A stretch of 64,000 nt of DNA. It comes from Guptibacillus hwajinpoensis (GTDB lineage: Bacteria > Bacillota > Bacilli > Bacillales > Guptibacillaceae). The DNA lies in NCBI RefSeq assembly GCF_001039475.1, contig NZ_LELK01000001.1, positions 1,275,735-1,339,734 on the forward strand. The letters run 5' to 3'. Shown one piece after another: positions 4,095-57,742 of this stretch. Under the pieces are notes generated by a model, which saw only the letters and a program-made list of their open reading frames with translations, was not told the DNA's origin and searched no databases. The translations under genes and the position numbers were made by a program. Positions within the stretch are counted from its first letter, which is position 1, and each line of letters starts with the position of its first letter.

Positions 4095-4271
4095 ATGACT
4101 ACATTACGAATCAGTTTATTTGTAATTACGATTGTTCTTGGAGTGGTGGTTTTAATAGACTATTCGCTACCTGCAGACTTATCCCTTTATGTGAAATCTA
4201 TTCTCTTTCTAGCAATTATCCTATACATACCTTATTTGGTTATCAAATATAAGACCAAAGAACAAAAATAA
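4095..4271 (+). CDS. Small membrane protein with two predicted transmembrane segments, 58 aa
   Basis: The ATG at 4095 follows TTAAGGAG by six bases. The product (MTTLRISLFVITIVLGVVVL..) has two hydrophobic segments joined by the short loop DYSLPADLSLYVK, and a basic tail (KYKTKEQK). No family recognised. A family A mobile element is inserted directly after it: the stop codon lies inside the 8-bp target duplication, so the native 3' end and any terminator have been pushed away by about 200 bp. Confidence 0.65.
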   Translation: MTTLRISLFVITIVLGVVVLIDYSLPADLSLYVKSILFLAIILYIPYLVIKYKTKEQK

Positions 4272-4473
4272 AGGCTATGTTAATGACCATTGTTGATTTT
4301 AGGCTCAATTTACGCCCTGCGGTGACCAATCGCTTCGAGCAAATTCATTTGCTCAGACGATTGGTCACAGGGCGACCTTTCAGCAGAGCTGAAAGGCGAG
4401 TGAAACTGAGGTTTCACTCGAATGAGCCAAAAATCGAGAAATCAACAATATGAGCCAACATAGCCAAAATAAA
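4265..4473. mobile_element. Family A palindromic MITE, copy 1 (element 4273-4465, 8-bp target repeats AAAATAAA)
   Basis: Element ends are GGCTATGTTA and CCAACATAGCC, imperfect inverted repeats that continue inward (GTTGATTTT / AAATCAAC). The perfect direct repeat AAAATAAA occurs at 4265-4272 and 4466-4473. This is the longest copy (193 bp). It carries two extra internal hairpins (GACCAATCG../..CGATTGGTC and CCTTTCAGC/GCTGAAAGG) not found in the others. There is no coding capacity. It sits between a stop codon and the A-tract of the opp terminator. Confidence 0.88.
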
Positions 4474-4512
4474 AAAAGAGCGACATTTCAAATGAAATGT
4501 CGCTCTTTTTCT
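4471..4512 (-). terminator. Terminator at the end of the opp operon
   Basis: A long perfect stem (AAAGAGCGACATTTC and complement) with loop AAAT, flanked by runs of A and T so that it can act in both directions. It ends just before the oppF stop. Confidence 0.9.
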
Positions 4513-4514
4513 TA

Positions 4515-5447
4515 TTAAACCGTAACGTTGAACTTATTAAATTCCTCTTCTGTACATGCAATCCAATGGCCTTCTGTTACCTCACGTAAAACGCGCTTTT
4601 CACCGTTTTCAGAAAGGTGTTTCTCAGGATCATAGATTTTACGTTTTCTAGAACGCTCATATTCAGGATCCGGAAGTGGGATTGCTGAAAGTAATGACTG
4701 CGTGTATGGATGAAGCGGATTGCGGTACAACTCTTCACTTTCTGCTAGCTCTACAATCTCACCGCGGTACATCACACCAATACGATCGCTAATATATTTA
4801 ACCATAGACAAATCATGCGCGATGAAGAGATACGTTAATCCCTTTTCCCTTTGCAACTTTTTCATTAGGTTAACAACCTGAGCTTGAATCGAAACATCAA
4901 GCGCAGAAATTGGCTCATCGGCAATAATGAACTCTGGATCTACCGCAAGAGCACGAGCAATTCCGATACGCTGGCGCTGTCCACCGCTAAATTCATGTGG
5001 ATAGCGATTCGCATGCTCTTTGTTAAGACCAACCGTCTCAAGAAGCTCATGAACTTTGTCCATACGAGCTTTCTTGGAGCTTGCAAGGCCATGGATATCA
5101 ATACCTTCAGCAATGATATCTGAAACCGTCATACGTGGGTTAAGGGATGCATAAGGATCCTGGAAGATCATCTGCATTTTACGATTGAATTTCTTCAATT
5201 CCTTAGCAGATTTCTTTCCATGAACATCCTCTCCGTTAAAAATAACCTCTCCGTCTGTCGCATTGTAAAGACGAATAATAGTACGGCCAGTTGTCGATTT
5301 ACCACAACCAGATTCCCCAACAAGACCAAATGTTTCACCTTTATAAATATCAAACGTTAACCCATCAACAGCTTTCACAGTTCCTTTACCAACCTTGAAA
5401 TGTTGTTTCAGGTTTTTAATTTCTAGAAGTTTTTCTTGATTAGACAT
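4515..5447 (-). CDS. oppF: Oligopeptide ABC transporter ATP-binding protein OppF
   Basis: ABC ATPase with Walker A 'GESGCGKST', signature 'FSGGQRQRIGIARALA', Walker B 'FIIADEPISAL' and switch His 'FIAHDLSM'. The C-terminal oligopeptide/dipeptide extension (YTQSLLSAIPLPDPE) is typical of OppF and DppF. It powers peptide import together with OppD. The start at 5447 overlaps the oppD stop by eight bases (ATGTCTAA), pointing to translational coupling. Last gene of the opp unit, closed by a strong terminator. At 310 residues the length is normal. Confidence 0.93.
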   Translation of the reverse strand: MSNQEKLLEIKNLKQHFKVGKGTVKAVDGLTFDIYKGETFGLVGESGCGKSTTGRTIIRLYNATDGEVIFNGEDVHGKKSAKELKKFNRKMQMIFQDPYASLNPRMTVSDIIAEGIDIHGLASSKKARMDKVHELLETVGLNKEHANRYPHEFSGGQRQRIGIARALAVDPEFIIADEPISALDVSIQAQVVNLMKKLQREKGLTYLFIAHDLSMVKYISDRIGVMYRGEIVELAESEELYRNPLHPYTQSLLSAIPLPDPEYERSRKRKIYDPEKHLSENGEKRVLREVTEGHWIACTEEEFNKFNVTV

Positions 5448-6510
5448 GTTTACCACCATCTTTCGCACCAATAATCGGCTCATCCGGAGCCATCCCTTGC
5501 ATTCGTTTCTTAATCGCTGCAGGTGGTTCTACCTTAGGCGCTTTCTCATGCAAGAGCCATGTTGCTGCATAGTGTGTATCTGAAACCTTAAATAAAGGAG
5601 GCTCCATTTCCGTATCAATCTGCATTGCATATGGATTACGCGGTGCAAATGCATCACCTTTTGGAGGATCAAGTAGATCAGGAGGTGAACCAGGAATTGC
5701 AATTAGCTCTTCATCTGTTGAATCAAGGCTTGGCATTGATCCGAGAAGTCCCCACGTGTAAGGATGTTGTGGATTATAGAAAATCTCATCAACAGTACCC
5801 GTTTCAACAATTTTCCCGGCATACATGACTGCTACTCGATCAGCAATGTTAGCTACAACACCAAGATCATGTGTAATAAAGATAATGGATGTTCCCATTT
5901 TTTCTTGTAAATCATTCAAAAGCTCAAGAATTTGCGCTTGAATCGTAACATCAAGTGCTGTAGTTGGTTCATCTGCAATAAGAACACGTGGATTACAAGC
6001 AAGTGCAATTGCAATAACAACACGCTGTCTCATTCCACCTGAGAATTGGTGAGGATATTCGGTCACTCTTCCCTCTGCATTTGGAATACCAACTAATTTC
6101 AATAGCTCAATGGCTCGCTCTTTTGCTTCTGACTTGTTCATGTTCTGGTGCTTAATAAGACCTTCCATGATCTGTTTCCCAATTGTCATCGTCGGGTTTA
6201 GAGATGTCATCGGATCTTGGAAGATCATTGAAATTTCGGAACCACGGATTTTTTGCATTTCTTTTTCAGGCAATTGTGCAAGGTTGCGGTCGCCAAACTT
6301 AATTTCGCCTTGCTTAATGCGTCCAGGAGGATTAGGAATCAAGCCCATAACTGCTTTAGATGTTACTGATTTACCTGAACCAGACTCTCCAACAATTGCT
6401 AATGTTTCACCTTTATTTAAATGGAAGTTTACTCCACGAACTGCTTTGACCTCTCCAGCAAACGTATCAAAGGAGACGTGCAAATCGTTCACTTCTAGAA
6501 TCTTTTCCAT
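5440..6510 (-). CDS. oppD: Oligopeptide ABC transporter ATP-binding protein OppD
   Basis: Walker A '[11 protein letters not shown]', Q-loop region '[13 protein letters not shown]', signature '[16 protein letters not shown]', Walker B '[11 protein letters not shown]' and 'FITHDLG'. The C-terminal Opp/Dpp extension is present, with '[22 protein letters not shown]', though it lacks the Cys-rich iron-sulfur motif seen in some homologues. It pairs with OppF to hydrolyse ATP for peptide uptake. It starts 12 bases after oppC, with GGGGGGAAT just before the ATG. Confidence 0.93.
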
Positions 6511-6522
6511 TCTAATTCCCCC

Positions 6523-7548
6523 CTATTTACGTAGCTTTGGATCAAATGCATCTCTTAGTCCGTCACCAAGCAGGTTAAATGCAATCATAATAAGTGAAAT
6601 AATGATTGACGGCCATAGAACAAGGTGCGGATAGATTTGTAAGCTTTTGAAACCATCGTTAATAATCGAACCAAGCGATGCTTCAGGTGGGCGAATACCA
6701 AGCCCGATAAAGCTAAGAAATGCTTCAAAGAAGATCGCATTTGGAATTGTAAACATTGTTGTAATGATAATTTGACCTAATACGTTTGGAATCAAGTGTT
6801 TTCCGATAACACGGCCACTCGTTGCCCCGAGCGTACGTGATGCTAATACAAATTCTTGTGTTTTAAGCTTCAATACTTGTCCACGAACAATACGCGACAT
6901 GCCTACCCAACCTGTGACGGAGAGGGCTAGTATAATCGAGAATATCCCTGGCTCAAAGATTAAGATAAAGAGAATGATGAGAATTAAGTTTGGAATACCG
7001 ATTAATACTTCAATAATACGCTGTAAAATGTTATCAACACGACCGCCGTAGTAGGCTGAAATTCCACCGTAAGCTACACCGATTACAAAGTCAATGAATG
7101 CAGCCGCTGCTGCAATGAAAAGTGAGATACGAGTACCCTGCCATACCCGAGTCCATTGGTCACGACCGAAGCCGTCTGTACCAAACCAAAAGTACTCTTC
7201 AACTCCCTTAGCTTCGTACTGATCTGTACCACGAATATCCACACCGTTTAATCCTAGGAAATCTACATTCTCAAGTACAGGTACTTTAGCAGGAAGCTTC
7301 GCTCTTGATAGATCCTGCTGAGAATATGAGTATTCATTCATTCCAGGGCCGATGATAGACATTAAAACGATTATTAGTATAATGATTAATCCTGTAATTG
7401 CACCAGGGTTCTTCTTTAATCTTCTCCATGCATCTTTCCAAAAACCAGTACTTTCACCGGCAATCTGTTCATTTTCTAAAGCATCAGTATTAGCGGGCTG
7501 AAACATGTGGTCTGAAAGTTCATCTAGTTTCTCTTGTTTCATACTCAT
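6523..7548 (-). CDS. oppC: Oligopeptide ABC transporter permease OppC
   Basis: Has the N-terminal OppC-type extension, one membrane segment and a large outer loop (residues about 60-140), then the inner-membrane permease domain. The EAA-type coupling motif is 'REFVLASRTLGATSGRVIGKHLIPN'-like ('QEFVLASRTLGA..'), near residue 230. About six membrane segments, consistent with OppC/DppC. The start codon overlaps the oppB stop (TAATG arrangement), with GGGAGGT upstream. Confidence 0.93.
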   Translation of the reverse strand: MSMKQEKLDELSDHMFQPANTDALENEQIAGESTGFWKDAWRRLKKNPGAITGLIIILIIVLMSIIGPGMNEYSYSQQDLSRAKLPAKVPVLENVDFLGLNGVDIRGTDQYEAKGVEEYFWFGTDGFGRDQWTRVWQGTRISLFIAAAAAFIDFVIGVAYGGISAYYGGRVDNILQRIIEVLIGIPNLILIILFILIFEPGIFSIILALSVTGWVGMSRIVRGQVLKLKTQEFVLASRTLGATSGRVIGKHLIPNVLGQIIITTMFTIPNAIFFEAFLSFIGLGIRPPEASLGSIINDGFKSLQIYPHLVLWPSIIISLIMIAFNLLGDGLRDAFDPKLRK

Positions 7549-8477
7549 TAATCTTTACCTCCCGCTAAACGAATTCGAGGATCGATGATACCATACATGA
7601 TATCTACAAGTAAGATCACTACGATAAATAACAAACTATAGAAGAGCGTCGTACCCATAATAATTGGGAAATCATTTGTCATAATTGAATTAACAAATTT
7701 TTCTCCAAGTCCTGGGATAACGAAGATCTGCTCAATTACAAGAGTACCTGTCATTAGAGCTACAACCAGTGGTCCCATAATGGTAATGATAGGTATAGAA
7801 GCATTACGGATTGTATGTCTAATAACAACCGCTGTGCTACTTAAGCCTTTTGCTTTCGCTGTTGTAATATAGTCCTGTCCAAGAACCTCTAGCATTTCCG
7901 TTCTCATAAAACGAGCAATGGTAGCTACAACAATTGAAGCAATTGCAATCGTCGGCATGATTGTGTAAGCGAAACCATCCCAGTAAGCAACTGGTAGCAG
8001 TTCCCACTTAACACCTAGCCAATACTGCATTAGGCCTGCAATAACAAAGTTTGGTATTGAAATACCAAGTACAGCGATGACCATTGTCCCGTAATCAAGA
8101 AATGAATTATGTCTTAGTGCTGCAATAATACCAAGGAATAGTCCAACAATTGTCCCAAGTACAATAGACTGGAACCCTAAATACGCTGATGGCCCAATTC
8201 GTTCCCCAATAATCGTTGATACTTCACGACCATCCTGCTGGAAGGATACTCCAAGATCACCAACGAATAGATTCTTCATGTAACTGAAGTATTGCACAGC
8301 AACTGGATCATTTAAGCCATACTTTTCATTTAATTGAACAATTTGTGTATCAGTTAGCTTTTCCTGGTTATTAAACGGTGTACCAGGGAGAAGCTTCATC
8401 AAAAAAAACGTTAGCGAAGCAATAATTAGGAAGGTAATAACCATTGATACTACTCTTCCGCCAATATAACGTCCCAC
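7548..8477 (-). CDS. oppB: Oligopeptide ABC transporter permease OppB
   Basis: Six-segment permease with the typical N-terminal 'GRYIGGRVVSMVITFLIIASLTFFLMKLLPG' and the coupling helix 'DYITTAKAKGLSSTAVVIRHTIRNA'. It forms the membrane pore with OppC. The GTG start at 8477 lies nine bases after GAGGAGG; starting further upstream would run through the ribosome site. At 309 residues this matches family length. It is separated from oppA by a terminator, so the oppBCDF part is probably expressed at a lower level. Confidence 0.92.
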   Translation of the reverse strand: MGRYIGGRVVSMVITFLIIASLTFFLMKLLPGTPFNNQEKLTDTQIVQLNEKYGLNDPVAVQYFSYMKNLFVGDLGVSFQQDGREVSTIIGERIGPSAYLGFQSIVLGTIVGLFLGIIAALRHNSFLDYGTMVIAVLGISIPNFVIAGLMQYWLGVKWELLPVAYWDGFAYTIMPTIAIASIVVATIARFMRTEMLEVLGQDYITTAKAKGLSSTAVVIRHTIRNASIPIITIMGPLVVALMTGTLVIEQIFVIPGLGEKFVNSIMTNDFPIIMGTTLFYSLLFIVVILLVDIMYGIIDPRIRLAGGKD

Positions 8478-8602
8478 TACAACCAACCTCCTCAATAGAT
8501 ACCTGCTTATACATTATAAGTCGAATTTTGAAATATCACTAGAAAAAATTTTCTATCTATTTCAATTTCTAGTTTTATTTCGACATATTTCTTATTACAG
8601 GT

Positions 8603-8639
8603 AAAAAAGAGAGCATATGTCAGGATGACATATACTCTC
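8603..8639 (-). terminator. Terminator between oppA and oppB
   Basis: A GAGAGCATATGTCA/TGACATATACTCTC stem (one mismatch) with a three-base loop, followed on the minus strand by TTTTTT. It lies 15 bases beyond the oppA stop and before oppB. Confidence 0.85.
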
Positions 8640-8653
8640 CTGAAAATCTAAGA

Positions 8654-10348
8654 TTATTTACCTTCGATCTTAACCCACTTGTAAGATGCGTCTGCACCAA
8701 ATGTGTGTACATAGTAGTTCTTAACGTAAGGCTGCTGAATGATAGCAAGTCCACGCTGATAAGTTGGAACGATCGCAATATCTTCTTCCATTAGTACTTT
8801 CTCAGCTTCTTGCATCATTTCCCAACGCTTAGCTTCATCTGTTTCTTTCTTAGCGTCTGAAACAAGTTGGTCATACTTTTCGCTTGAGTAACCCATGCGG
8901 TTGTATGCTCCATCAGTTTCAAACATGTAAAGGAATGTCATTGGATCTGGATAGTCAGGTCCCCAACCACCGGTTGAGATGTCGAAATCGCCTGCATCTT
9001 CAAGTTTAAGGAATTGCTTCCAAGGTTGCTTGTTGATTGTAATTGTTAGACCATCAAGCTTAGATTCAAACTGCTCTTTCGCATACTCAGCGATTGTTGA
9101 AGAAAGTTCAGTATCAGTAGTAAGGAATTCAAAATCTACTGAATCAGTTCCAAGAGCTTCAAGTCCTGCTTCCCATGCTTCTTTAGCTTCTGCTTCACCT
9201 TGATCAGCGAAGAAACCATCTTTAGCAAATTCACGGAAGTCAGCGCCATCTGGGCCTTTAACAAAGTCTTTTGGTACGAAATATTTCGCTGCAACAGAAC
9301 CGTTGTTTAGAAGAACATTTACAAGTCCTTCACGGTCATAAGCAAGGAATAGTGCTTTACGAATATCTTTGTTAGCTAGTGCTTCGTTCTCTCCCTGGTT
9401 TAGACGAAGGAAGAACATAGTTGGTTCAAGGATAGTTGAGAAATCTTCACCATCTTTAAACTGATCAACGAAGTCAGCATCAAGAGTAGCACGGTCAACT
9501 TTTCCTGTTTCATATAGGTTTACACTTGTTGCAGTATCTTTAACAACTTTAACAGTGATTTCTTCAAGGTTTACAACTTCAGCATCCCAGTATTCAGGAT
9601 TCTTTTTGTAGTTCCAGCCTTCACCGTGATTCCATTCAGAGAATACGAATGGTCCGTTGTAAAGCATAGTATCTGCTTCAAGAGCGAATTCTTCACCTTG
9701 CTCTTCAGCAAATGCTTTCGGTTGTGGATAGAACGTTGCAAATGTTAGAAGTGATTTGAAGTAAGGGACTTGGTTCTCAACAGTTACTTCAAGAGTCTTC
9801 TCATCTACTGCTTTAGCTCCGAGCTCTTCTACTTTACCGTAAAGAGGATCGCCTTCAGTAATGATTGCATTACCGTTCTTGATTCCTGCAGTACCGAACA
9901 TAGAAGCGTAAGGAGAAATAGTTTCTGGATTTAGAGCTTTATGCCAAGCATAAATGAAATCTTCTGCCGTTACAGCAGAACCGTCAGACCATTTCGCATC
10001 ATCGCGAATTGTGAAGGTATAGACAGTTTCACCGTCTTTTTCTTCTTCTTTAGGTTCTTCAGCAGCAACACCTAGTGTTGGCTCGTTGTTTTCGTCAAGG
10101 CGATAAAGACCTTCGAAAACTTGGTTCATAGCGTTAAACGATGTTGCATCAGTAGCCTGCGTAGTATCCATTGACGGAATCTCTGCAGTTGCGTATAAAT
10201 TCATAATCTGTTCAGAAGCAGAGTCTCCGTTGCCTTCTCCGCCACCATTGTTCCCCCCGTTGTTTGAGCCGCCGCCGCCGCAAGCCGACAGGAACACGCT
10301 CAATACAAGCACAAGAGATAGGACGAGTGTCCATCTTGATTTCTTCAT
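8654..10348 (-). CDS. oppA: Oligopeptide-binding lipoprotein OppA
   Basis: A lipoprotein signal with lipobox LSAC (Cys23) is followed by a low-complexity Gly/Asn linker (GGGGSNNGGNNGGGEGNGD) and a family 5 extracellular solute-binding domain, including 'VYTFTIRDDAKWSDGSAVTAEDF' and 'DYPDPMTFLYMF'. It captures peptides outside the membrane and delivers them to OppBC. The ribosome site TAAGGGAGGT precedes the ATG. First gene of the opp unit; the protein is acidic, as is common in salt- or alkali-tolerant bacilli. A possible -10 (TATAAT on the minus strand at 10454-10459) lies about 110 bases upstream, without a clear -35. Confidence 0.93.
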   Translation of the reverse strand: MKKSRWTLVLSLVLVLSVFLSACGGGGSNNGGNNGGGEGNGDSASEQIMNLYATAEIPSMDTTQATDATSFNAMNQVFEGLYRLDENNEPTLGVAAEEPKEEEKDGETVYTFTIRDDAKWSDGSAVTAEDFIYAWHKALNPETISPYASMFGTAGIKNGNAIITEGDPLYGKVEELGAKAVDEKTLEVTVENQVPYFKSLLTFATFYPQPKAFAEEQGEEFALEADTMLYNGPFVFSEWNHGEGWNYKKNPEYWDAEVVNLEEITVKVVKDTATSVNLYETGKVDRATLDADFVDQFKDGEDFSTILEPTMFFLRLNQGENEALANKDIRKALFLAYDREGLVNVLLNNGSVAAKYFVPKDFVKGPDGADFREFAKDGFFADQGEAEAKEAWEAGLEALGTDSVDFEFLTTDTELSSTIAEYAKEQFESKLDGLTITINKQPWKQFLKLEDAGDFDISTGGWGPDYPDPMTFLYMFETDGAYNRMGYSSEKYDQLVSDAKKETDEAKRWEMMQEAEKVLMEEDIAIVPTYQRGLAIIQQPYVKNYYVHTFGADASYKWVKIEGK

Positions 10349-10738
10349 GCTGTGTGACCTCCCTTAAAATATGTAGCTATAAAAGCTAATGTACGTGGAA
10401 CAAAATTCATCAAATTATCTAACAATTCATTTGATTCCTTTGCCACAATTCGTATTATACAAGTTTTCTAACTATTTTGCATATGCTTTTTTAACGTAAA
10501 TTTACAAAAACCGCGTCAGGATTACGTTTGGATAACAGAAAATAGTCATAAAGTCCTAGTATTAATTCTCTGTTTTTTGGGTAATTTTTATTTCTTACAG
10601 TGTAATGTATGAAAATCTATCTACGCCCCTTACCTGAAAGTATGTAATATATATAACTGTATATCGTATGCATAACCCCGAATTTTCTGAAATAATAACG
10701 AATTGTAAATGCTACTAGGTAATTTTACGTCATTTCTA
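10349..10738. other. Non-coding region upstream of oppA and the DUF3899-like gene
   Basis: About 390 bases of AT-rich sequence between divergent genes. Apart from a weak minus-strand -10 (10454-10459), no convincing gene, repeat or structured RNA was seen. Confidence 0.5.
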
Positions 10739-10767
10739 TTGTTCTTGCCCTGTTCTTTTTTTATACT
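10739..10767 (+). promoter_or_regulatory. Putative sigma-A promoter for the DUF3899-like gene
   Basis: TTGTTC (10739-10744) and TATACT (10762-10767) are separated by 17 bases, about 30 bases before the start codon. Confidence 0.5.
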
Positions 10768-10798
10768 GAATAAGAGGAAAGAATAATTGGGGGCATAT

Positions 10799-11170
10799 AT
10801 GAAATCACTTCTGTTAAAGTCAACACTTCTTATAATACTCGCACTTGTTTCATCAATCGTTATTTTAATAACATCTGACGAAGGAATTGGAATCCGAGCT
10901 GTATCTGATCTTCTTTTTATGATTGGACTTGCGATGGTTCTCATTGGTGCAACACTTCACGTTGTACAAACTGGATTCTTTGATGGAATTGTCTATTCTT
11001 TTAAGCGCTATTTCAAAAATAGCACAAAGCATCAAATGATTGAGGAGGATAAAAGCGAATTAAGTTATCAATTAAATTACGATAATCCGATTACATATCC
11101 ATTGTTACTAGCAGGAGCATTTTGGACGTTCGTTACAATTATCATATCCATTGTTATTGTAAGTTCTTAA
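10799..11170 (+). CDS. Small membrane protein, DUF3899-like, 123 aa
   Basis: Three hydrophobic segments are visible: residues about 5-25, 33-55 ('DLLFMIGLAMVLIGATLHVV') and the C-terminal 'PLLLAGAFWTFVTIIISIVIV'. The loop 'TGFFDGIVYSFKRYFK' followed by a charged stretch matches the DUF3899 layout. Function unknown. The ATG at 10799 follows TTGGGGGC closely; a TTG at 10787 behind AAGAGGAAA is a possible alternative. It lies upstream of the trpS T-box leader and has its own promoter. Confidence 0.7.
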   Translation: MKSLLLKSTLLIILALVSSIVILITSDEGIGIRAVSDLLFMIGLAMVLIGATLHVVQTGFFDGIVYSFKRYFKNSTKHQMIEEDKSELSYQLNYDNPITYPLLLAGAFWTFVTIIISIVIVSS

Positions 11171-11174
11171 CTTC

Positions 11175-11204
11175 TTGCATGACACGTTTCAAATAAGCTA
11201 TACT
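11175..11204 (+). promoter_or_regulatory. Putative promoter of the trpS T-box leader
   Basis: TTGCAT (11175-11180) and TATACT (11199-11204), spacing 18. Transcription from here would begin just before the T-box stem I. Confidence 0.5.
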
Positions 11205-11214
11205 AAAAGTGGAT

Positions 11215-11478
11215 ATAGAATACAGATCGGCTATGATAAAGAGTAGTACAATTTGTTGTGTTAAGTAGAGAGCCTGTGGTTGGTGAAAACAGGTAGCACA
11301 CTAATTGGAATGGACTTTTGAGCCCCTTTGCTGAACAGATAGTAAGTAAAGGCGTGAGCATTCACGTTATCACTAGCGGTTTTGATAGAAACCATAAAGT
11401 GATCCAGTCTAACTGGATAAGCAGGGTGGCACCACGGTCCATTCGTCCCTAGCAATAGGGATGAATGGGCCTTTTTGT
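11215..11478 (+). promoter_or_regulatory. T-box leader (tryptophan) controlling trpS
   Basis: The conserved T-box sequence AGGGTGGCACCACGG lies at 11423-11437. It is followed by an attenuator stem (TCCATTCGTCCCT / AGGGATGAATGGG) and a CTTTTTG tract. Upstream are the stem I landmarks AGAG.. and GGTTGGTGAAAACAGG, and a candidate specifier TGG at 11311-11313, which fits tryptophan. In this family, uncharged tRNA pairs with the specifier and T-box and prevents termination, so trpS is raised when charged tRNA-Trp is short. Confidence 0.92.
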
Positions 11479-11509
11479 GTTCTATTGCATTTATTTTGAA
11501 AGGGGATAA

Positions 11510-12505
<996 letters not shown>

Positions 12506-12507
12506 AT

Positions 12508-12541
12508 AAAAAGAAGGCTGCCATTCGGGAGCCTTCTTTAC
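12508..12541. terminator. Terminator between convergent trpS and yjbA
   Basis: AAGAAGGCT/AGCCTTCTT stem with extra G-C pairs near the loop. The minus-strand U-rich tail (TTTTTATTTA) is the stronger one. Confidence 0.75.
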
Positions 12542-12544
12542 GTC

Positions 12545-13961: not shown

Positions 13962-14067
13962 TAGGAGCGTTAGCGACGAAGAAGCTCACCGCCCGCCCCG
14001 CGGAAAGCGAGCATTCTGGAGCGGAAATTAACCAACTCATATAGCAACAATGTTTACCAAAAGAGTC
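13962..14067. repeat. Family B GC-rich palindromic repeat, partial copy
   Basis: Contains the family B core GGAGCGTTAGCGACGA, CGCCCGCCCCGCGGAAAGCG and GGAGCGGAAATTAACC, then the end sequence TAGCAACAATGTTTACC..AAAAGAG. The other half of the palindrome is missing, replaced by the family C fragment. Confidence 0.75.
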
Positions 14068-26799: not shown

Positions 26800-26859
26800 A
26801 ATAAAAAGGCTATATTAGTTCATATTGTTGATTTCTCGATTTCATATAGCCAATAAAAA
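26800..26859. mobile_element. Family A palindromic MITE, copy 2 (element 26808-26851, repeats AATAAAAA)
   Basis: A short 44-bp deletion form, GGCTATATTAGTTCATATTG through TATAGCC, still flanked by perfect 8-bp direct repeats AATAAAAA (26800-26807 and 26852-26859). The right repeat forms part of the A-tract of the following terminator. Confidence 0.82.
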
Positions 26860-40757: not shown

Positions 40758-40879
40758 AAAAAGAAGGCTATGTTAGCTCATATTGTTGACTTCTCGATTT
40801 TTGGCTCATTCGAGTGAAACCTCAGTTTCACTCGAATGAGCCAAAAATCAACACTGTTCATTAACTTAGCCAAAAAGAA
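40758..40879. mobile_element. Family A palindromic MITE, copy 3 (element 40766-40871, repeats AAAAAGAA)
   Basis: GGCTATGTTAGCTCATATTG at the left, CATTAACTTAGCC at the right, with an internal hairpin GGCTCATTCGAGTGAAAC../..GTTTCACTCGAATGAGCC. Perfect 8-bp repeats AAAAAGAA at 40758-40765 and 40872-40879. The right repeat runs into the ku ribosome site. Confidence 0.88.
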
Positions 40880-40891
40880 AGGATGATATCA

Positions 40892-44548: not shown

Positions 44549-44630
44549 TTGGACCCCTCCTATCTTACACTTTCTAATGCTCTAACATATTAACAGTCTT
44601 AAGTCATAGTTTCTAAAGTCTTTTTTCGTA

Positions 44631-44844
44631 GGCATTGTTACACTTAGATAAGTGGTTAATTTCCGCTCCAGGATGCTCGCTTTCCGCGGGGCGGGACACT
44701 TGAGCCTCCTCGTCGCTTACGCTCCTGTGGGGTCTCACCTGTCCCGCTAGTCCCGCAGGAGTCGAACATCCTTCCGCTCCAATCACTAAGTGTGGTTTTC
44801 TATAACAAAAATCTTCAAAAGCAACAATCTTTTAGAAAAGAGCC
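44631..44844. repeat. Family B GC-rich palindromic repeat, full-length copy
   Basis: About 214 bp, from GGCATTGTTAC to AGCAACAATCTTTTAG..AGAGCC. Includes CCGCTCCAGGATGCTCGC, CCGCGGGGCGGG, GCTCCTGTGGGGTCTCACCTG and CCGCAGGAGTCG. No 8-bp target duplication could be found. Confidence 0.82.
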
Positions 44845-44926: not shown

Positions 44927-45036
44927 AACATATAGGCTATGTTAGCTCATATTGGTGATTTCTCGATTTTTGGCTCATTCCACAGGGCGTAAATGTGCCA
45001 AAAATCAACACTGTTCATTAACATACCCAACATATA
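44927..45036. mobile_element. Family A palindromic MITE, copy 4 (element 44935-45028, repeats AACATATA)
   Basis: GGCTATGTTAGCTCATATTG to CATTAACATACCC, with inner GGCTCATTCC/..GTGCC. Perfect direct repeats AACATATA at 44927-44934 and 45029-45036. Located downstream of malG. Confidence 0.87.
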
Positions 45037-48871: not shown

Positions 48872-48885
48872 TGCAAACGATTGCA
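48872..48885. promoter_or_regulatory. LacI-family operator O4 before the GH13 gene
   Basis: TGCAAACGATTGCA, an almost perfect palindrome, placed between the GH13 promoter and its ribosome site, where bound protein would act as a roadblock. Confidence 0.7.
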
Positions 48886-48899
48886 TATGGAGGTTATGA

Positions 48900-50636
<1,737 letters not shown>

Positions 50637-50640
50637 TGAT

Positions 50641-50679
50641 GAAGAAGCACCTGGACACCTTCCAGGTGCTTCTTTTTTG
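50641..50679 (+). terminator. Terminator of the GH13 gene
   Basis: GAAGCACCTGGA/TCCAGGTGCTTC with a short loop, followed by TTTTTT. Confidence 0.88.
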
Positions 50680-50780
50680 GTCTTTATTTAACTAAATAAT
50701 CTGTAAGCGCAACCACCCTTACCTTGTCTATCTTCAACCAATTTACCGATTATACTGATGGAATATTATCTAACGTAGTT

Positions 50781-50797
50781 TTTTAAATTTTCTAAAA
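50781..50797. promoter_or_regulatory. TnrA-type site upstream of the glnK promoter
   Basis: TTTTAAATTTTCTAAAA fits the inner part of TGTNANAWWWTMTNACA with two outer mismatches. Its centre is about 50 bases before the expected start site, the position used by TnrA when it activates nrgAB in B. subtilis. Confidence 0.45.
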
Positions 50798-50803
50798 ATA
50801 TAC

Positions 50804-50832
50804 TTGAATTTACGTGTACCTCAGCATACTAT
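50804..50832 (+). promoter_or_regulatory. glnK-amt promoter
   Basis: TTGAAT (50804-50809) and TACTAT (50827-50832), spacing 17. Confidence 0.65.
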
Positions 50833-50853
50833 TAGGATACAGAAGAAAGATGA

Positions 50854-50870
50854 TGTTAGATAAACTGACA
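50854..50870. promoter_or_regulatory. GlnR/TnrA box downstream of the glnK promoter
   Basis: TGTTAGATAAACTGACA differs from the consensus at one fixed position. It lies at about +15 to +31 and ends just before the GGAGGG ribosome site, a repressing position. Confidence 0.75.
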
Positions 50871-50883
50871 TGGAGGGTCTAAA

Positions 50884-51225
50884 ATGAAAAAAGTTGAAGC
50901 CATTATTCGTCCTGAAGCTTTCCAAAATTTACGGGATCGTTTGAGTGATGAGGGTATTACAGGAATGACAGTTTCTGAAGTAGCAGGATGTGGGTTACAG
51001 AAAAAGCAAACAGGCGTGTTCAGAGGAAGTCATTTTGAAGTCTCTCTCCAGCCTAAGATTAAAGTCGAACTCATCTTTGATGATCACCTGCTTGACCACG
51101 TTGTAAAGAATATACGAGATGTATGCGCAACAGGTGAAATTGGAGATGGTAAAATTTTCGTCTACCCTGTAGAAGATGTTATTCGTATTCGTTCTGGTGA
51201 ACACGGTCTTACAGCTATTAAATAA
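50884..51225 (+). CDS. glnK: P-II nitrogen regulator GlnK
   Basis: 113-residue P-II protein: 'KKVEAIIRPEAFQNLRDRLSDEGITGMTVSEVAGCG', T-loop 'LQKKQTGVFRGSHFE', and 'TGEIGDGKIFVYPVEDVIRIRSGE' for ATP binding. The T-loop Tyr that is uridylylated in enterics is Phe46 here; uridylylation is not used in Bacillus. It senses 2-oxoglutarate and ATP and closes the Amt channel. Co-transcribed with amt. Confidence 0.93.
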   Translation: MKKVEAIIRPEAFQNLRDRLSDEGITGMTVSEVAGCGLQKKQTGVFRGSHFEVSLQPKIKVELIFDDHLLDHVVKNIRDVCATGEIGDGKIFVYPVEDVIRIRSGEHGLTAIK

Positions 51226-51247
51226 CTTGAAAAGGATGATGGAAGCA

Positions 51248-52642
51248 ATGAAAAAGATATCTGCCTTATTTATAGCACTCTTCCTACTTTCTGGAGGTCA
51301 AGCATTTGCTGCAGGAGATGCAGCCGTAGCAACATTAAGTCAATCAATGGACACCATTTGGGTTATGATCGCTGCATTTCTTGTCTTCTTCATGCATGCC
51401 GGGTTTGCAATGGTCGAAACAGGTTTCACCCGATCGAAAAACGCTCTCAATATTTTAATGAAGAACTTACTAACAATGTCAATAGGAGCCGTGTTGTATT
51501 TCATTATCGGCTACGGAATAATGTTTGGTACATCCTCAGGTGGATTTATTGGAACGAATGGGTTCTTCCTCCTAGGACAATCTGAAAACATTGGTTTCTT
51601 CGTATTCCAAGCTGTTTTTGCTGCCACGTGCGCCACAATTATTTCAGGTGCCGTTGCGGAACGAATGAAGCTAATTAGTTATATCGCTGTAACGATCGCA
51701 ATGGTCGCAATCGTCTATCCAGTAGTAGGTCACTGGATTTGGGGCGGCGGATGGCTTTCAGAGCTTGGGTTTACAGACTTTGCTGGATCAACTGTTGTTC
51801 ATTTAACTGGTGCAATTGGTGCTGTCGTAGCTGTCTCTTTTCTTGGAGGTCGTATTGGGAAGTACTCTAATGGCAAAGTAAATGTTATTCAGGGTCACAA
51901 TATTCCTCTCGGTGCTCTAGGTGTGTTCATCCTTTGGTTCGGCTGGTTTGGATTTAATGCAGGTAGTACTCTCTCAGCTAGTGATGCACTTATTCCTATT
52001 ATTGTAGCAACAACCCTTCTTTCAGCTTCAGGTGGTGTAATTGGAAGTGCACTCTATTCTTACATTCGTTACAAACAAATCGATGCCTCATTAACATTAA
52101 ACGGCGCTCTTGCAGGACTGGTCGGAATCACAGCCGGTACAGCAAGCGTATCACCAATAGGCGCCATCTTCATTGGATTAATTGCAGGTGTTATTCTAAT
52201 TGAAGCTGTTCAATTAATTGACCGTCGAGTTAAACTTGATGATCCAGTTGGAGCAATCGCTGTTCACGGTGTATGTGGTGTTTGGGGTACAGTAGCTGTC
52301 GGACTATTCGCTGTAGAAGGTGGTCTATTCTACGGGGGCGGCGCAGCACTCCTGCTAGTTCAAGCAATAGGCGTACTCGCTGTCATCGCCTGGACTTCCG
52401 TTACTCTCGGTACGTTTCTATTTATCTACACACGATTCTCCTCTATCCGCGTATCACGGGAAGAAGAAATTCAAGGTCTCGACTTCGCAGAACACGGATC
52501 AACAGCCTACGAACTACGCGGCGGGATCCTAAACAATAACGAAAGCCCATCAACAGGTTCTCCCTTCGGCCACGGCTTAGTAGACCGCCTAAACGGACTA
52601 GAAAAACCAAAAGTTGATAGAAAAGCGGAAGTGGGCGGTTAG
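51248..52642 (+). CDS. amt: Ammonium transporter Amt (NrgA)
   Basis: 464 residues. Signal-like first helix (MKKISALFIALFLLSGGQAFA), then eleven membrane segments with 'DTIWVMIAAFLVFFMHAGFAMVE', 'GHWIWGGGWLSELGFTDFAGSTVVHLTG', 'LGVFILWFGWFGFNAGS' and 'AIAVHGVCGVWGTVAVGLF', all Amt hallmarks. The start is uncertain: ATG at 51248, or 51236/51239 right behind AAAGGA. The last residues (RKAEVGG) and stop codon come from a family C repeat, so the native C-terminus has been replaced. Confidence 0.92.
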   Translation: MKKISALFIALFLLSGGQAFAAGDAAVATLSQSMDTIWVMIAAFLVFFMHAGFAMVETGFTRSKNALNILMKNLLTMSIGAVLYFIIGYGIMFGTSSGGFIGTNGFFLLGQSENIGFFVFQAVFAATCATIISGAVAERMKLISYIAVTIAMVAIVYPVVGHWIWGGGWLSELGFTDFAGSTVVHLTGAIGAVVAVSFLGGRIGKYSNGKVNVIQGHNIPLGALGVFILWFGWFGFNAGSTLSASDALIPIIVATTLLSASGGVIGSALYSYIRYKQIDASLTLNGALAGLVGITAGTASVSPIGAIFIGLIAGVILIEAVQLIDRRVKLDDPVGAIAVHGVCGVWGTVAVGLFAVEGGLFYGGGAALLLVQAIGVLAVIAWTSVTLGTFLFIYTRFSSIRVSREEEIQGLDFAEHGSTAYELRGGILNNNESPSTGSPFGHGLVDRLNGLEKPKVDRKAEVGG

Positions 52643-52766
52643 ACTCGAAAAGCGCTGGAACTTCCCAAAAAGAACACGCTCTTTGTGTTCATTTTGGGAA
52701 GTGAAGCGATCGAGAGGCTGCCCACTGCAGCTGGATCAAGAAAAGCGGAAGTGGGAGGTTAGACTC
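52616..52766. repeat. Family C repeat: one full unit and a truncated second unit
   Basis: Unit from about 52616 to 52735: AAAAGCGGAAGTGGGCGG pairs with GCCCACTGCAGCT edges, and arms ACTTCCCAAAA / ATTTTGGGAAGT flank the constant GAACAC..GTGTTC hairpin. A second unit begins at about 52740 (AAAAGCGGAAGTGGGAGG) but stops near 52766. It spans the amt stop codon. Confidence 0.85.
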
Positions 52767-52798
52767 TTCCCCAAAATAACCAGATCATTATTTAGATA

Positions 52799-52980
52799 GG
52801 CTCTTATCTAAAAGTTGTTGCTATTTAAAAATCTTTAGATAAAAAACCACATTACGCTAATTGGAGCGGAAGGATGCTCGACTCCTGCGGGACTAGCGGG
52901 ACAGGTGAGACCCCCGCAGAAATCGGGTAGGAGCGGAAATTCCCCCACTACTCAAATAGCAACAATGTATAAGAGAAAGC
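52799..52980. repeat. Family B GC-rich palindromic repeat copy
   Basis: GGCTCTTATCTAAAAGTTGTTGC at one end and AGCAACAATGTATAAGAG at the other form inverted ends. The core has CGGAAGGATGCTCGACTCC and GACAGGTGAGACCCCCGCAG. The centre is shorter than at 44631. Confidence 0.8.
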
Positions 52981-52988
52981 ATTCATAC

Positions 52989-53024
52989 AAAAAGAACCGA
53001 AGCGAGAATCATAGCTTCGGTTCT
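52989..53024 (-). terminator. Terminator of the asparagine synthetase gene
   Basis: AAGAACCGAAGC/GCTTCGGTTCTT hairpin followed on the minus strand by TTTTTG, 87 bases beyond the stop. Confidence 0.82.
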
Positions 53025-53110
53025 TAATTTAAGTTTTATGAAAGTCATTAATGATTGTAGCGCAAATCAACCACTACTCTTAAACCATTGCCTACGAAAA
53101 CACCCTTAAA

Positions 53111-54952
53111 TTAATCTACAATATTTACACCCTTCTGCTCCATCCAATAATTAATTTGAGCAAGATGTGCGATTAACTGAGGACCTGCCATCAACTGACC
53201 AAACCACGGCACCTTAAAGGCCTTTCCTTCTGAATCAATAATATCCTGAACAACCTGACGATCAATAAGGACAAGAAGTGGCGCTTGCTTATTATCAATC
53301 GTCTGCTGTAGCCAGCTAGATACAGCCTTCGTGTAGGCTGGATGATAGGTTTTGGGATAAGGACTTTTCTTACGATAAAGAACATCATGGGAAAGCGTTC
53401 CTGTCATCGCTCTCCTTAGTAAGCCTTTCTCTCTACCATCAAGCATCTTCATATCCCATGGTACATTCCAAACGTACTCAATTATCCGATGGTCTGAGAA
53501 AGGAACCCTTACTTCAAGACTTGCTCCCATACTCATTCGATCTTTTCGTTCGAGTAACGTTGTCATAAACCAATTTAGATTCAAATAAAAGAGCGATCTT
53601 CTTTTCGCTTCTAACTCACTTTCGCCATCTAGACGAGGCGTTTCGTTAATCGACTCACGATACCGATCTGTTACGTACTGCTCAAGTTTTAACTTATTTC
53701 GAACATCTTCTTTTAACATAGCCTGACGTTCGAGGGTTGAACGCATCCATGGGAACTGTTCTTGATCAAGAAGTTCCGGTTTATGGAACCAGGGGTAGCC
53801 CCCGAATATTTCATCTGCACATTCACCAGAAAGTGCAACAGTTGCATGTTGTTTTATTTGCTTTGAAAACCATAGAAGCGAAGAATCTACATCCGCCATT
53901 CCAGGAAGATCACGACATTGTATAGCTCCTTTTAAATGGTGAACGAGTTGATCGGTATCAATGACACAGTTCGTATGATCCGTAGCAAGTTCTGCCGATA
54001 CTTTTTTGATCCATGGTGCGTCAGCATTTGGCTGGAATTCACTACTTTCAAAGAATTTATCATTATCAACATAATCTACTGAAAACGACCGCAGCGTTCC
54101 TCTGCCATCATTTGCAAATGCGGTTTGAGCAACAGATGTAATGGCGCTTGAATCAACTCCTCCAGATAAAAATGTACAAACAGGAACATCTGCGACGAGC
54201 TGCCTCTTAATTGCATCTTTCAAAAGATCTCCAACTGTTTCAACTGTAGTATCTAAATTATCTGTGTGCTCTTCGCTCTTTACGTTCCAATAACGCCACT
54301 TCTTTAAACCATTTCGATCAAATATCATTGCAAAACCCGGGCGTAGTTCTTGAATACCACGGAAAACTCCGTGACCCGGCGTTCTTGAAGGCCCAAGGCC
54401 GAATATTTCTTGTAACCCTTCCCGATCAATTTCAGTTTTCACAGCAGGATGAGCAAGAATAGCTTTCAGCTCTGAACCAAATTGAACAGAACTGCCACTA
54501 TTTCGATAGAATAATGGTTTCACTCCTAGTCGATCTCGCGCTAGAAACAACTGATCTCCGTCCCAAATAGCGAATGCAAAAATACCGTTTAAGTGATCAA
54601 CACAAGCCTCTCCCCATTCAACATAAGATGTTAAGAGAACTTCTGTATCTGAATGTGATTGAAATGAATATCCTTTGCCAAGCAGAACCTTTCTTATATC
54701 TTCCGTATTGTACAACTCACCGTTATAGCAAATGGTATAGCTTTTCTCACGATGTTTACGCGTCATTGGTTGACCACCACCAGCTGGATCGACGACAATT
54801 AAACGCGTATGTCCAAACCCACAATGGCCTTGTAACCAGCAGGTAGAAGCATCCGGGCCGCGTTTTGATAACGTATTGGCCATCTGTTGAAGAACTTTCT
54901 TCTCCCCTGTCAGATCCTGTTTCCAATCAACCCATCCTGTTATGCCACACAA
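53111..54952 (-). CDS. asnO: Glutamine-hydrolysing asparagine synthetase (AsnO-like)
   Basis: 613 residues. The class II glutaminase needs Cys at position 2: with a TTG start at 54952 the protein begins M-C-G-I-T-G-W, and GGAGGG lies seven bases upstream, which settles the start. 'RGPDASTCW', 'LYNTEDIRKVLL' and 'PVCTFLSGGVDSSAIT' (PP-loop) are intact. It makes asparagine from aspartate, glutamine and ATP. The length matches the sporulation-linked AsnO (YisO) better than AsnB. Confidence 0.92.
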   Translation of the reverse strand: MCGITGWVDWKQDLTGEKKVLQQMANTLSKRGPDASTCWLQGHCGFGHTRLIVVDPAGGGQPMTRKHREKSYTICYNGELYNTEDIRKVLLGKGYSFQSHSDTEVLLTSYVEWGEACVDHLNGIFAFAIWDGDQLFLARDRLGVKPLFYRNSGSSVQFGSELKAILAHPAVKTEIDREGLQEIFGLGPSRTPGHGVFRGIQELRPGFAMIFDRNGLKKWRYWNVKSEEHTDNLDTTVETVGDLLKDAIKRQLVADVPVCTFLSGGVDSSAITSVAQTAFANDGRGTLRSFSVDYVDNDKFFESSEFQPNADAPWIKKVSAELATDHTNCVIDTDQLVHHLKGAIQCRDLPGMADVDSSLLWFSKQIKQHATVALSGECADEIFGGYPWFHKPELLDQEQFPWMRSTLERQAMLKEDVRNKLKLEQYVTDRYRESINETPRLDGESELEAKRRSLFYLNLNWFMTTLLERKDRMSMGASLEVRVPFSDHRIIEYVWNVPWDMKMLDGREKGLLRRAMTGTLSHDVLYRKKSPYPKTYHPAYTKAVSSWLQQTIDNKQAPLLVLIDRQVVQDIIDSEGKAFKVPWFGQLMAGPQLIAHLAQINYWMEQKGVNIVD

Positions 54953-55053
54953 AAGCTCTCCCTCCAATCAATGCTCTCTGTTCACTTTATGCTTCCGCCC
55001 ACTTTTTGTGCATTATTTTATCTCCTTCTGTATTCATCCCATTTCTGAACAAG

Positions 55054-55093
55054 AAAAAAGCTCGAAACCCTTAGTAAGGGTTTCAAGCTTTTT
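55054..55093 (-). terminator. Terminator of the methyltransferase gene
   Basis: AAAAAGCTCGAAACCCTT/AAGGGTTTCAAGCTTTTT, a long stem that contains the stop codon. Confidence 0.85.
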
Positions 55094-56078
55094 GAAATCG
55101 CATGAAATACCATGCTCCTTCTTTCACAACTGGCTTCATTTCCTTTAATTTAAATCCTGTTTCAGAAGCAAGGTTTACCATCTCAGCACGATTAGGTAAC
55201 GGAAACAGGTTGTCGTGTGCACTCATGAAACTATTAAATGCCGCTGAAAATGCAATGCCATGCTTCGACTCATGTATCGGTGAAATGACGATAAGCTCTC
55301 CTTTTTCTCCTGTTACTTCATGGGCTTTTTCGAATAATCCAAAACGGTCTTCAGGTGAAAAGTAGTAGAGCAGGTTATTCATCATGGCAACATCAAAAGG
55401 ATCTCCATCCCACTGCCATGTCATCATATCGTCCGGATAGAGCGAAATAGACGATTTTAAAGGAAAGTGAATGTTTTCCTCTGCCTCAAGACAAACCGAC
55501 TTGTTTTTCTCAATTCCAACTAGCTTCATATCTTCAAGTTTTGCTCCAATACGTGAAAGATACCCCGCATAGCCTGCTCCAAAATCAATAACGGATTTTG
55601 CATTCGTTTTCTTAATACACTTATGAATCTTTGGGAAAGCAAACCTTTCAATAAAACTCGACGTTGCAGCAACAGTTCCACCGTAATCTTCATCCTGATA
55701 AGATGCGTGATCTTCACTATTCAATAAATCTGGATAGGACAGGAGTATGGGAATATGTAACTCCATCATTTCTTTTAACAGTATACCGACTGACTGATCA
55801 CTGTTCTTTGAGATGGATTCAACCATATGTTTCTTGGAATGTATTTTGCCATCCTTATCAAGTTTCAAATGATTAATGGCAACACCCACGTCTGCCCACC
55901 TAGTTAGCAGAAGCTCGTTCATATCTCGTTTATTCGCAACATCGGAGACGGTCGTTCCTTCCTCAAATTCATCGAATAAATCATGAACATAACCAACATG
56001 TGCATGCCAGGCATATAGAAAAGGTTCATTGCTTTTCATCCATTTCCTTGCACGCCAAATCTTTTTCAGTTCCTTCAT
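55083..56078 (-). CDS. Class I SAM-dependent methyltransferase with N-terminal winged-helix part
   Basis: 331 residues. The N-terminal roughly 120 residues ('DEFEEGTTVSDVANKRDMNELLLTRWADVGVAI') look like the dimerisation wHTH of small-molecule methyltransferases. SAM motif I is 'SVIDFGAGYAGYLSRIG', then 'LVGIEKNKSV' and 'DVAMMNNLLYYFSPEDR'. ATG at 56078 behind GGGAGGAAC. It lies 16 bases after the FAD monooxygenase gene: probably one two-gene pathway unit acting on the same aromatic or quinone-like compound. Confidence 0.87.
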   Translation of the reverse strand: MKELKKIWRARKWMKSNEPFLYAWHAHVGYVHDLFDEFEEGTTVSDVANKRDMNELLLTRWADVGVAINHLKLDKDGKIHSKKHMVESISKNSDQSVGILLKEMMELHIPILLSYPDLLNSEDHASYQDEDYGGTVAATSSFIERFAFPKIHKCIKKTNAKSVIDFGAGYAGYLSRIGAKLEDMKLVGIEKNKSVCLEAEENIHFPLKSSISLYPDDMMTWQWDGDPFDVAMMNNLLYYFSPEDRFGLFEKAHEVTGEKGELIVISPIHESKHGIAFSAAFNSFMSAHDNLFPLPNRAEMVNLASETGFKLKEMKPVVKEGAWYFMRFQKA

Positions 56079-56094
56079 TCTAGTTCCTCCCGTC

Positions 56095-57426
56095 TCATTT
56101 GCGATACCATGGATAATCATCGTACGTTGAAAACATAATCTTTTCTTTCTTCTTATCAGAAATTTTCACTCGCCCTGCTTTTACAGGTAGAAGTCCAGCC
56201 TGTTTCATTCGATCCACTAGATTGAATTTCCATATGCCTAGTCCAGATGTATTCAGCATTTGTTTATAATGCAGGCTAAGTGAATGTTCCGTTTGCTTTA
56301 CTCCTTTTATCCTTAGCTTCTGCCATGCTCGATAAGGAAATGAATATAGTAAGGCAGCCTGATGACTGAGTCTTGATACATATTCTGCTCTCGGCTTTCT
56401 AACTTTTTCGTACCATTCTAACTGTGACCATTCCGTTTGATTCGTCTTGAACATCCAACATAGGAGCTCTCCTAGTACATCCGAATCCTGGATAGCAAGA
56501 TTCATACCTTCACCCGCCATAGGATGCACACTATGGGCAGCATCACCGGTTAAAATCATATTGTCTTTCACATAGCTAGATACATTATGCCTTACGGGAA
56601 TCATCAGCTGGATTTTCTTCCACGTATCAATTTGATGAACATACCCTTCAAGCTCAGGCATTAGTTCGCAATACGCTCGATAGAATGACTCCAGTCCTTC
56701 TTCACGCATCGTTTTAAACTCGCCAGGTTTAATCAAAAGCACACTCCGAACTTCATTATTTGGAAGCGGGAATAAGCCAACAAACTTGTTTTGTGTTGTA
56801 ATAATTGTAGACTGATTAAGCGAATCTGGTCTTGGAAATGAAACGGTTAAAAAGTGATGGTTATACTTTGTGTTTTTCATATCTACTTCCATCGCCGTTC
56901 TTGTTGGAGATGCTCTTCCTTCTGCACCAATATAGAAAGAAGCATGAATTTTCCGCTCGCCTTCTTTCGTTTGAATGATGGCTTTTTTATGTTGAGGTTC
57001 TTCATCTGTGAACCCCGTAAATTTAGCCGGTTGGATATAATCGACCGATTCATACTTGGAGGCTTCAATGAATAAAAGCTCTTTTAACTTTTCATGTGGA
57101 ATCATAAGAGACGTATTATAAGGCGAATCAATAAGATCATATCTGAATTCGTTTGCACTAAGCTGTGTCATCGTTTGGTCAGCTTTCTGATCGTATTCGT
57201 AGAATTGAATAGATGGTAAACTAAATCCATTCTCCTTCACTAGCTCTAGCATATTGATTCGATCCAGAATTTCAAGGCTCTTAGGTTGAAGCAACTCGCC
57301 TTTATAGATGAGCCCGCTCTTTTTATCTTTTTCTACTAAGAGCGTCTTAATATTATTCTGCCCTAGCTTAACAGCGAGGGTGAGGCCAGAAATGCCCCCA
57401 CCAATAATCATGACATCGTAATCCAT
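56095..57426 (-). CDS. FAD-dependent monooxygenase (UbiH/PHBH-like)
   Basis: 443 residues: 'YDVMIIGGGISGLTLAVKLGQNNIKTLLVEKD' (FAD fold), 'ASFYIGAEGRASPTRTAM' with the DG-like motif, and 'NMILTGDAAHSVHPMAGEGMNLAIQDSDVL' (second FAD motif), all typical of class A flavin monooxygenases. A C-terminal helical tail follows. First gene of a pair with the methyltransferase. The substrate is not predictable. Short spacer GAGGTG before the ATG. Confidence 0.87.
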   Translation of the reverse strand: MDYDVMIIGGGISGLTLAVKLGQNNIKTLLVEKDKKSGLIYKGELLQPKSLEILDRINMLELVKENGFSLPSIQFYEYDQKADQTMTQLSANEFRYDLIDSPYNTSLMIPHEKLKELLFIEASKYESVDYIQPAKFTGFTDEEPQHKKAIIQTKEGERKIHASFYIGAEGRASPTRTAMEVDMKNTKYNHHFLTVSFPRPDSLNQSTIITTQNKFVGLFPLPNNEVRSVLLIKPGEFKTMREEGLESFYRAYCELMPELEGYVHQIDTWKKIQLMIPVRHNVSSYVKDNMILTGDAAHSVHPMAGEGMNLAIQDSDVLGELLCWMFKTNQTEWSQLEWYEKVRKPRAEYVSRLSHQAALLYSFPYRAWQKLRIKGVKQTEHSLSLHYKQMLNTSGLGIWKFNLVDRMKQAGLLPVKAGRVKISDKKKEKIMFSTYDDYPWYRK

Positions 57427-57533
57427 CTTTCATCACCTCATTCGATATCTTCCTATTCCCTTCCAATCACCCCTTAAAACAGAATAAGAAATCTGTGTGT
57501 GTTATCGAAGGTATTTAAACAAAAACCTTATTG

Positions 57534-57742
57534 GTAGACACTGTTGCTATAGTGGGTTAATATCCGCTTCAGGATGCTCCAATCGGCGAAGTGTGGTTTT
57601 TTATTTGGCTATGTTAATCAGTAGTGTTGATTTTTGGCTCATTCGAGTGAAACTGAGGTTTAACTCGAATGAGCCAAAATCGAGAAATCAACAAAATGAG
57701 CTAACATAGCCTTTTATTTAATAAGTGTTTCAAAAGCAACAC
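57534..57742. repeat. Family B repeat, internally deleted, interrupted by MITE copy 5
   Basis: Left part from ACACTGTTGCTATAGTGG to GAAGTGTGGTTTTTTATTT; right part TTTTATTTAATAAG..AAAAGCAAC after the inserted family A element. The nested order shows that the B copy was there first. Confidence 0.75.
57599..57719. mobile_element. Family A palindromic MITE, copy 5 (element 57607-57711, repeats TTTTATTT)
   Basis: GGCTATGTTAATCAGTAGTG to AGCTAACATAGCC, internal GGCTCATTCGAGTGAAAC hairpin. Perfect 8-bp repeats TTTTATTT at 57599-57606 and 57712-57719, within a family B repeat. Confidence 0.9.

Follow-up and report, generated by a model that had tools for sequence, protein, structure and literature searches.

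A family of hairpin-bearing miniature transposable elements with IS1595-type ends in Guptibacillus hwajinpoensis

What moves a short repeat that encodes no transposase, and what keeps its hairpins paired? Both questions are raised by a 64,000-nucleotide stretch of the genome of Guptibacillus hwajinpoensis (contig NZ_LELK01000001.1, positions 1,275,735 to 1,339,734; hereafter, the window), in which a sequence-only reading had recognized five copies of a miniature inverted-repeat transposable element (MITE). Direct inspection of the window bears out the coordinates of all five elements, each of which is flanked by an exact 8-bp duplication. Judging from sequence comparisons, the family to which they belong is, with high probability, a non-autonomous MITE mobilized in trans by a DDE transposase of the IS1595 family.

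Family size and target duplications

The two ends of the element are unlike, as the sequence-only reading had noted, and thus give it an orientation; both the A end (GGCTATGTTAGCTCATATTGTTGATTTCTCGATTT) and the B end (GGCTATGTTAATGAACAGTGTTGATTTTTGGCTCA) are real. When the whole genome (4.26 Mb in 14 contigs) was searched for the two end types at up to three mismatches, the A end was found 57 times and the B end 51 times, with 0 control matches for each; a looser end pattern, also at up to three mismatches, gave 146 matches in the genome compared with 2 for the reversed pattern. At least 76 copies could be anchored, 66 of which are bounded on both sides, the five copies first described being the window's share and not the size of the family. 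Similarly, the claim that every copy has a perfect duplication is valid for the five window elements but not for the family as a whole: among 53 copies whose ends were recognized independently of the duplication, the match is 8/8 in 31, 7/8 in 10, 6/8 in 6 and lower in 6, against a shuffled-partner background of 1.3% at 8/8, 2.0% at 7/8 and 5.8% at 6/8. An 86-bp copy at C8:154328 has an 8/8 duplication.

With lengths of 35 to 196 bp, inverted ends, target duplications, empty sites in relatives and this copy number, the family has the attributes of a MITE, and the proposal of an oriented element that duplicates its target and varies in length through internal changes is supported. In a scan of genome contigs from which records of the own genome possibly had been excluded, the long exact A end had one named match, in Bacillus sp. 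NTK071. No description of the family was found among the open-access papers listed by literature searches; the family is new, and the IS1595-derived MITE as a kind is already known. Single N letters are present within the long element copies L018, L030 and L084 (own genome, C14) and perhaps represent assembly gaps at strong hairpins.

Empty sites in related genomes

For elements 1, 2 and 3, the corresponding region could be located in every one of the 13 further genomes of the genus, and the insertion site is empty in each; relatives without empty sites, the outcome that the sequence-only reading had named as a refutation, were not encountered at these three sites. Within 450 bp of the sites, none of the 13 relatives has an end with fewer than 6 mismatches. 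Loose matches at 6 mismatches were detected in 5 of the 13 at element 1 and in 1 of the 13 at element 3, but were taken as chance, given that 42 of 200 random pieces of the window match equally well. In direct views, a single AAAATAAA is kept at the site of element 1 in genome G013 and a single AATAAAAA at the site of element 2 in G002; the site of element 3, with a single AAAAAGAA kept in G002, is empty by alignment in both G002 and G013. A 68-bp copy elsewhere in the genome (C7:1156882) is absent from G013.

Ends and target sites shared with IS1595-family elements

The ends of the MITE are bipartite (GGCTNTGTTA-N8-TGTTGATTT), and a full insertion sequence (IS) with the same bipartite ends, which the sequence-only reading had suggested looking for, indeed exists in other Bacillales, where such ends belong to complete elements of the IS1595 family. 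The pattern GGCTATGTTAR-N7-TGTTGATTT, at no more than one mismatch, occurs in 31 of the 61 genomes searched, including 8 of the 14 of the genus. One element with such bipartite ends, L046, is 1636 bp long, is flanked by the perfect duplication TTTAAATA and encodes a 352-aa protein that matches PF12762 over the cut-off, together with a zinc-ribbon match that is below its cut-off. When 150 genomes of the order were queried with this protein, 39 proved to contain matches at E 1e-30. Among 30 loci returned by the query, 10 contain an element that has an 8/8 duplication and agrees in 22 or more of 30 end bases; the ends are of the RGCTNTGTTA type in nine of these and of a sister type in one (L177). 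The scan of these loci accepted duplications of 6 or more, and the apparent chance pairings at L164, L168, L171, L182, L185, L188 and L189 were not counted; L165 (6/8) and L180 (7/8) were likewise left out. Against the NCBIfam model NF033547 (IS1595), all eight transposases tested score over the cut-off, and PF12762 is over its cut-off in all seven further transposases besides that of L046.

The MITE and the IS elements also agree in the target. At the 54 sites with duplications of 7/8 or better, the duplication is preceded by T in 50 and followed by A in 46, and its positions 1, 2, 7 and 8 are A or T in 98-100% of the sites. The whole palindromic target, YT-WWNNNNWW-AR, fits 36 of the 54 (background, 722 matches across about 250 kb of flanks), 14 of 21 sites in relatives and 7 of the 10 IS elements with an 8/8 duplication. 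In addition, a search with the protein query detected an IS1595 relic in the own genome, that is, a 68-residue fragment, 56% identical and with a stop codon inside, which lies about 0.4 kb from an IS1595-like end.

The sequence-only reading had named IS6 and ISL3 as candidate drivers. In favor of the suggestion, ends starting with GG and 8-bp duplications are known for both families. Nevertheless, it is highly improbable that an IS6 or ISL3 transposase drives this family: IS1595 elements with identified transposases match it in the longer end signature, in the length of the duplication and in the context of the target, and the relic with such an end in the own genome belongs to IS1595 as well. 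The suggestion is thus unsupported, having been displaced by the better IS1595 match and not by a search aimed at IS6 or ISL3 transposases, whose genes were not searched for. IS1595 is, most likely, the driver.

Several observations weigh against this assignment. Searches with PF12762 and with the protein found no intact IS1595 transposase in the own genome, where the only trace is the decayed fragment; PF12762 is absent from that entire genome at E 0.001 and reaches this threshold in 0 of the 14 genomes of the genus. Therefore, the actual driver is not seen beside the MITE. An intact IS1595 transposase in the host is not required of a MITE, but the driver stays unseen. Furthermore, the MITE and the IS elements do not agree in the 8 spacer bases or in the sequence internal to the ends, so that none of the IS seen is the direct parent. 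Finally, the whole target motif does not fit 18 of the 54 own sites and 7 of the 21 sites in relatives.

Under the IS1595 assignment, the transposase would bind both blocks of each end and would cut the target with an 8-bp stagger; it would have been lost from the lineage after the spread of the family. A likely driver and a target rule can thereby be named for an abundant type of repeat in Bacillales. Additional open reading frames (ORFs) lie beside the transposases of L046 (1798-2211) and L040 (500-1792) and possibly are passenger genes; for the 138-aa ORF of L046, Pfam gave no match.

Insertion at intrinsic terminators

A terminator-like hairpin is located within 15 nt of 26 of the 60 insertion sites; among intergenic control sites matched for the motif, the count is 43 of 236 (odds ratio 3.4, Fisher p 1.2e-4). 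Intrinsic terminators are thus found at insertions about 2.4 times as often as at the control sites. The insertions lie in the A or T tracts of these terminators more frequently than expected, an enrichment which suggests that such tracts would be targeted directly. A point against such targeting is that the enrichment may be a survival bias, whereby insertions are seen at terminators only because selection removed those elsewhere. We give this explanation close to an even chance: 55 of the 60 sites lie outside called ORFs, and selection on promoters cannot be removed by a control that consists of intergenic motif sites. It is less easily reconciled with the gene gaps used, which among the 60 sites include 38 tandem and 5 divergent gaps as well as 12 convergent ones, and with separate insertions that occurred before the same terminator in different species. 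In one such case, where the flanks in the own genome and in G013 are closely similar, the two insertions lie a few bp apart and have different perfect duplications. A second case, which involves the own genome and G004, is weaker: both insertions are equally far from the terminator, the G004 duplication is 7/8 and the flanks are only about 75% identical.

Architecture and length classes

In the full-length form (189-196 bp, typically about 195 bp; 17 of the 66 bounded copies), the A and B ends enclose an outer stem and three hairpins, here numbered I to III. Four species of the genus (the own genome, G013, G006 and G005) have this form, which is probably the ancestral mobile one. Shorter copies lack hairpins, and the shortest ones (35-60 bp, 6 of 66) retain one end together with a few bases from the opposite end. 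Because one and the same insertion, with matching flanks, is 195 bp long in the own genome and 106 bp long in G006, loss of hairpins in place seems to occur; extrapolating from this shared site, short forms would arise after insertion by deletion of hairpins at short repeats.

Alternatively, the 142-, 106- and 68-bp forms could be separate mobile subfamilies. The possibility is a serious one, if somewhat short of even, inasmuch as a single 106-bp architecture is common to 11 own copies, most of which have 7/8 or 8/8 duplications. The insertion shared with G006 argues for deletion instead, as do the junctions in copies of the 142 type, which are of two or more kinds, and the short repeats at which several of the short copies end.

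In a comparison of L112 (G006:C3) with L055, the region is about 91% identical to the own genome over about 1.7 kb, and the other G006 regions searched are 77-81% identical; transfer of the L112 region between species is possible.

Paired changes in the hairpins

Covariation was assessed in 23 full-length copies, 17 from the own genome and 6 from relatives, with truncated copies excluded. Changes on both sides of a pair are concentrated in hairpin III, the longest of the three (11 of 29 pairs), and affect 0 of 33 pairs in the three outer helices, 1 of 9 in hairpin I and 0 of 10 in hairpin II. The 12 pairs with both-side change in the whole structure are matched by none of 500 shuffles, and slid structures give 3 to 6. 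In hairpin III, 12 distinct double changes were identified, 7 of them transversions and 5 transitions. The frequency of change per site and copy is 0.064 in the arms of hairpin III, 0.015 in hairpin I, 0.013 in hairpin II and 0.081 at unpaired sites. The 106 class, in which hairpin I continues without a break into the outer stem, was scored in 17 copies: in that stem, 6 of 25 changed cells are doubly changed to Watson-Crick pairs, compared with 0 of 18 in the outer ends. The loops themselves can be inverted: this is the case in 2 of 57 scored copies for hairpin I, 3 of 40 (one of these weak) for hairpin II and 2 of 28 for hairpin III, and two more flips involve the innermost loop; three flips in L115 were not counted in this tally.

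We consider it probable, albeit not proved, that the stem of hairpin III is kept by template switching during replication and not by selection on RNA. The near-perfect stem would persist through copying of one arm from the other. Template switching is preferred because it explains arm copying, loop inversion and the dependence on arm spacing together, whereas RNA selection explains only the first of these.

Selection on a structured RNA, with the paired changes being selected compensatory mutations, appears unlikely, even though element 1 is predicted to fold with great stability (-98.8 kcal/mol, z -12.2), hairpins I and II are conserved and hairpin III contains 16 G-U cells. The arms of hairpin III change almost as fast as unpaired sites, and the 7 transversions among its 12 distinct double changes have no paired intermediate. 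At a pair that is mostly G-C, and A-T in one own copy, two copies have an A-C mismatch. Inverted loops are not what selection on an RNA would explain, covariation is wholly absent from the outer stems of the predicted RNA (0 of 33 pairs) and window positions 4200-4540, which include element 1, match no Rfam family above the gathering score, the sub-threshold matches lying mostly on the neighboring terminator.

The preference for template switching has to contend with evidence that points the other way. The rate of change in hairpins I and II is about five to six times lower than at unpaired sites, a sign of some constraint on these two hairpins; the 16 G-U cells of hairpin III and the 5 transitions among its 12 distinct double changes would also be at home under RNA selection, and 3 of the 6 double changes in the 106 class sit in a single copy, L112. 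The low change of hairpins I and II is explained fully by neither template switching nor RNA selection.

Taken as a whole, the family may well be a natural recorder of template switching, an interpretation toward which we lean slightly and which draws on dozens of near-identical, mostly intergenic hairpin copies: arms that are near each other are rewritten from each other, loops flip and arms more than 100 bp apart in the same copies are not so rewritten. If so, paired changes of the kind called compensatory arise without RNA selection, and the rate of paired change as a function of arm spacing can be read from a single genome. The family also offers many copies, probably free of constraint, in which to address a disputed point, namely, whether paired changes are proof that a stem functions as RNA or can arise through mutation alone.

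The five elements of the window

Element 1 (4273-4465, 193 bp, minus strand in the A-to-B direction) is of the full-length class and has three internal hairpins; its duplication AAAATAAA occupies 4265-4272 on the left and 4466-4473 on the right, the latter being followed by a hairpin that resembles an intrinsic terminator. Element 2 (26808-26851, plus strand), the 44-bp copy, is a real element but, at variance with the sequence-only reading, does not have two complete ends: it is internally deleted, with the full A end joined to the outermost few bases of the B end. Its duplication AATAAAAA is at 26800-26807 and 26852-26859, the right copy lying within an A-tract ahead of a terminator-like hairpin. 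Element 3 (40766-40871, plus strand) belongs to the 106-bp class, in which the outer stem extends hairpin I and hairpins II and III are missing; its duplication AAAAAGAA is at 40758-40765 and 40872-40879. Only 3 bp separate the right duplication from an ORF that is listed from 40883 (window positions 40872-40883), so that the element adjoins the likely ribosome-binding site. Element 4 (44935-45028, 94 bp, plus strand) retains a remnant of hairpin III and is flanked by AACATATA at 44927-44934 and 45029-45036.

Element 5 (57607-57711, minus strand), a 105-bp copy of the 106 class, is flanked by TTTTATTT at 57599-57606 and 57712-57719 and is nested in an apparent copy of a second MITE family, whose right end is at 57915 and whose left end is degenerate. 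This second MITE-like family has the ends GGCTCTTTTCTAAAAGATTGTTG and GGCTCTTTTCGTA(A/G)ACATTGTTGC and a G+C-rich core; in the window, it occurs at 44618-44844 and about 57527-57915, with ends also near 14067 and 52799-53105. IS1595 elements with its end type exist as well, namely, L177 (8/8 duplication) and L180 (7/8).

Comparison with known systems

Abundant palindromic repeats between genes include bcr1 of Bacillus cereus and the REPINs, both of which are taken to be families other than this MITE. The IS1595 elements found here (L160/L046, L161 and L163) share with the MITE the 8-bp A/T-rich duplication, the bipartite ends and the target context, but encode a DDE transposase, which the MITE lacks, and the three-hairpin core of the MITE was not seen in the ends of these IS.

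ISApl4, a member of the IS1595 family, is likewise reported to make an 8-bp A/T-rich duplication but has different ends, GGGGCTGTACTAGA (PMC12561309). An IS1595-derived MITE related to ISHwa6 is described in Haloquadratum walsbyi, with a length of 165 bp, a 25-bp inverted repeat and an 8-bp duplication (PMC3852290); unlike the present family, it is archaeal and has 7 copies, and the passage that describes it is silent on hairpin editing and on a target motif (PMC3852290).

Editing of hairpins by template switching, with compensatory changes, homogenization of arms and inversion of loops, is reported in two studies (PMC8794818, PMC8604942), which deal with RNA genes and coding sequence, whereas the hairpins analyzed here lie within a multi-copy, probably unconstrained mobile element. 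In the former study, the strongest evidence for the maintenance of stems by template switching is said to be circumstantial, and compensatory change with loop inversion is extremely rare in its data (PMC8794818). Here, compensatory changes and loop inversions are both found within one MITE family.

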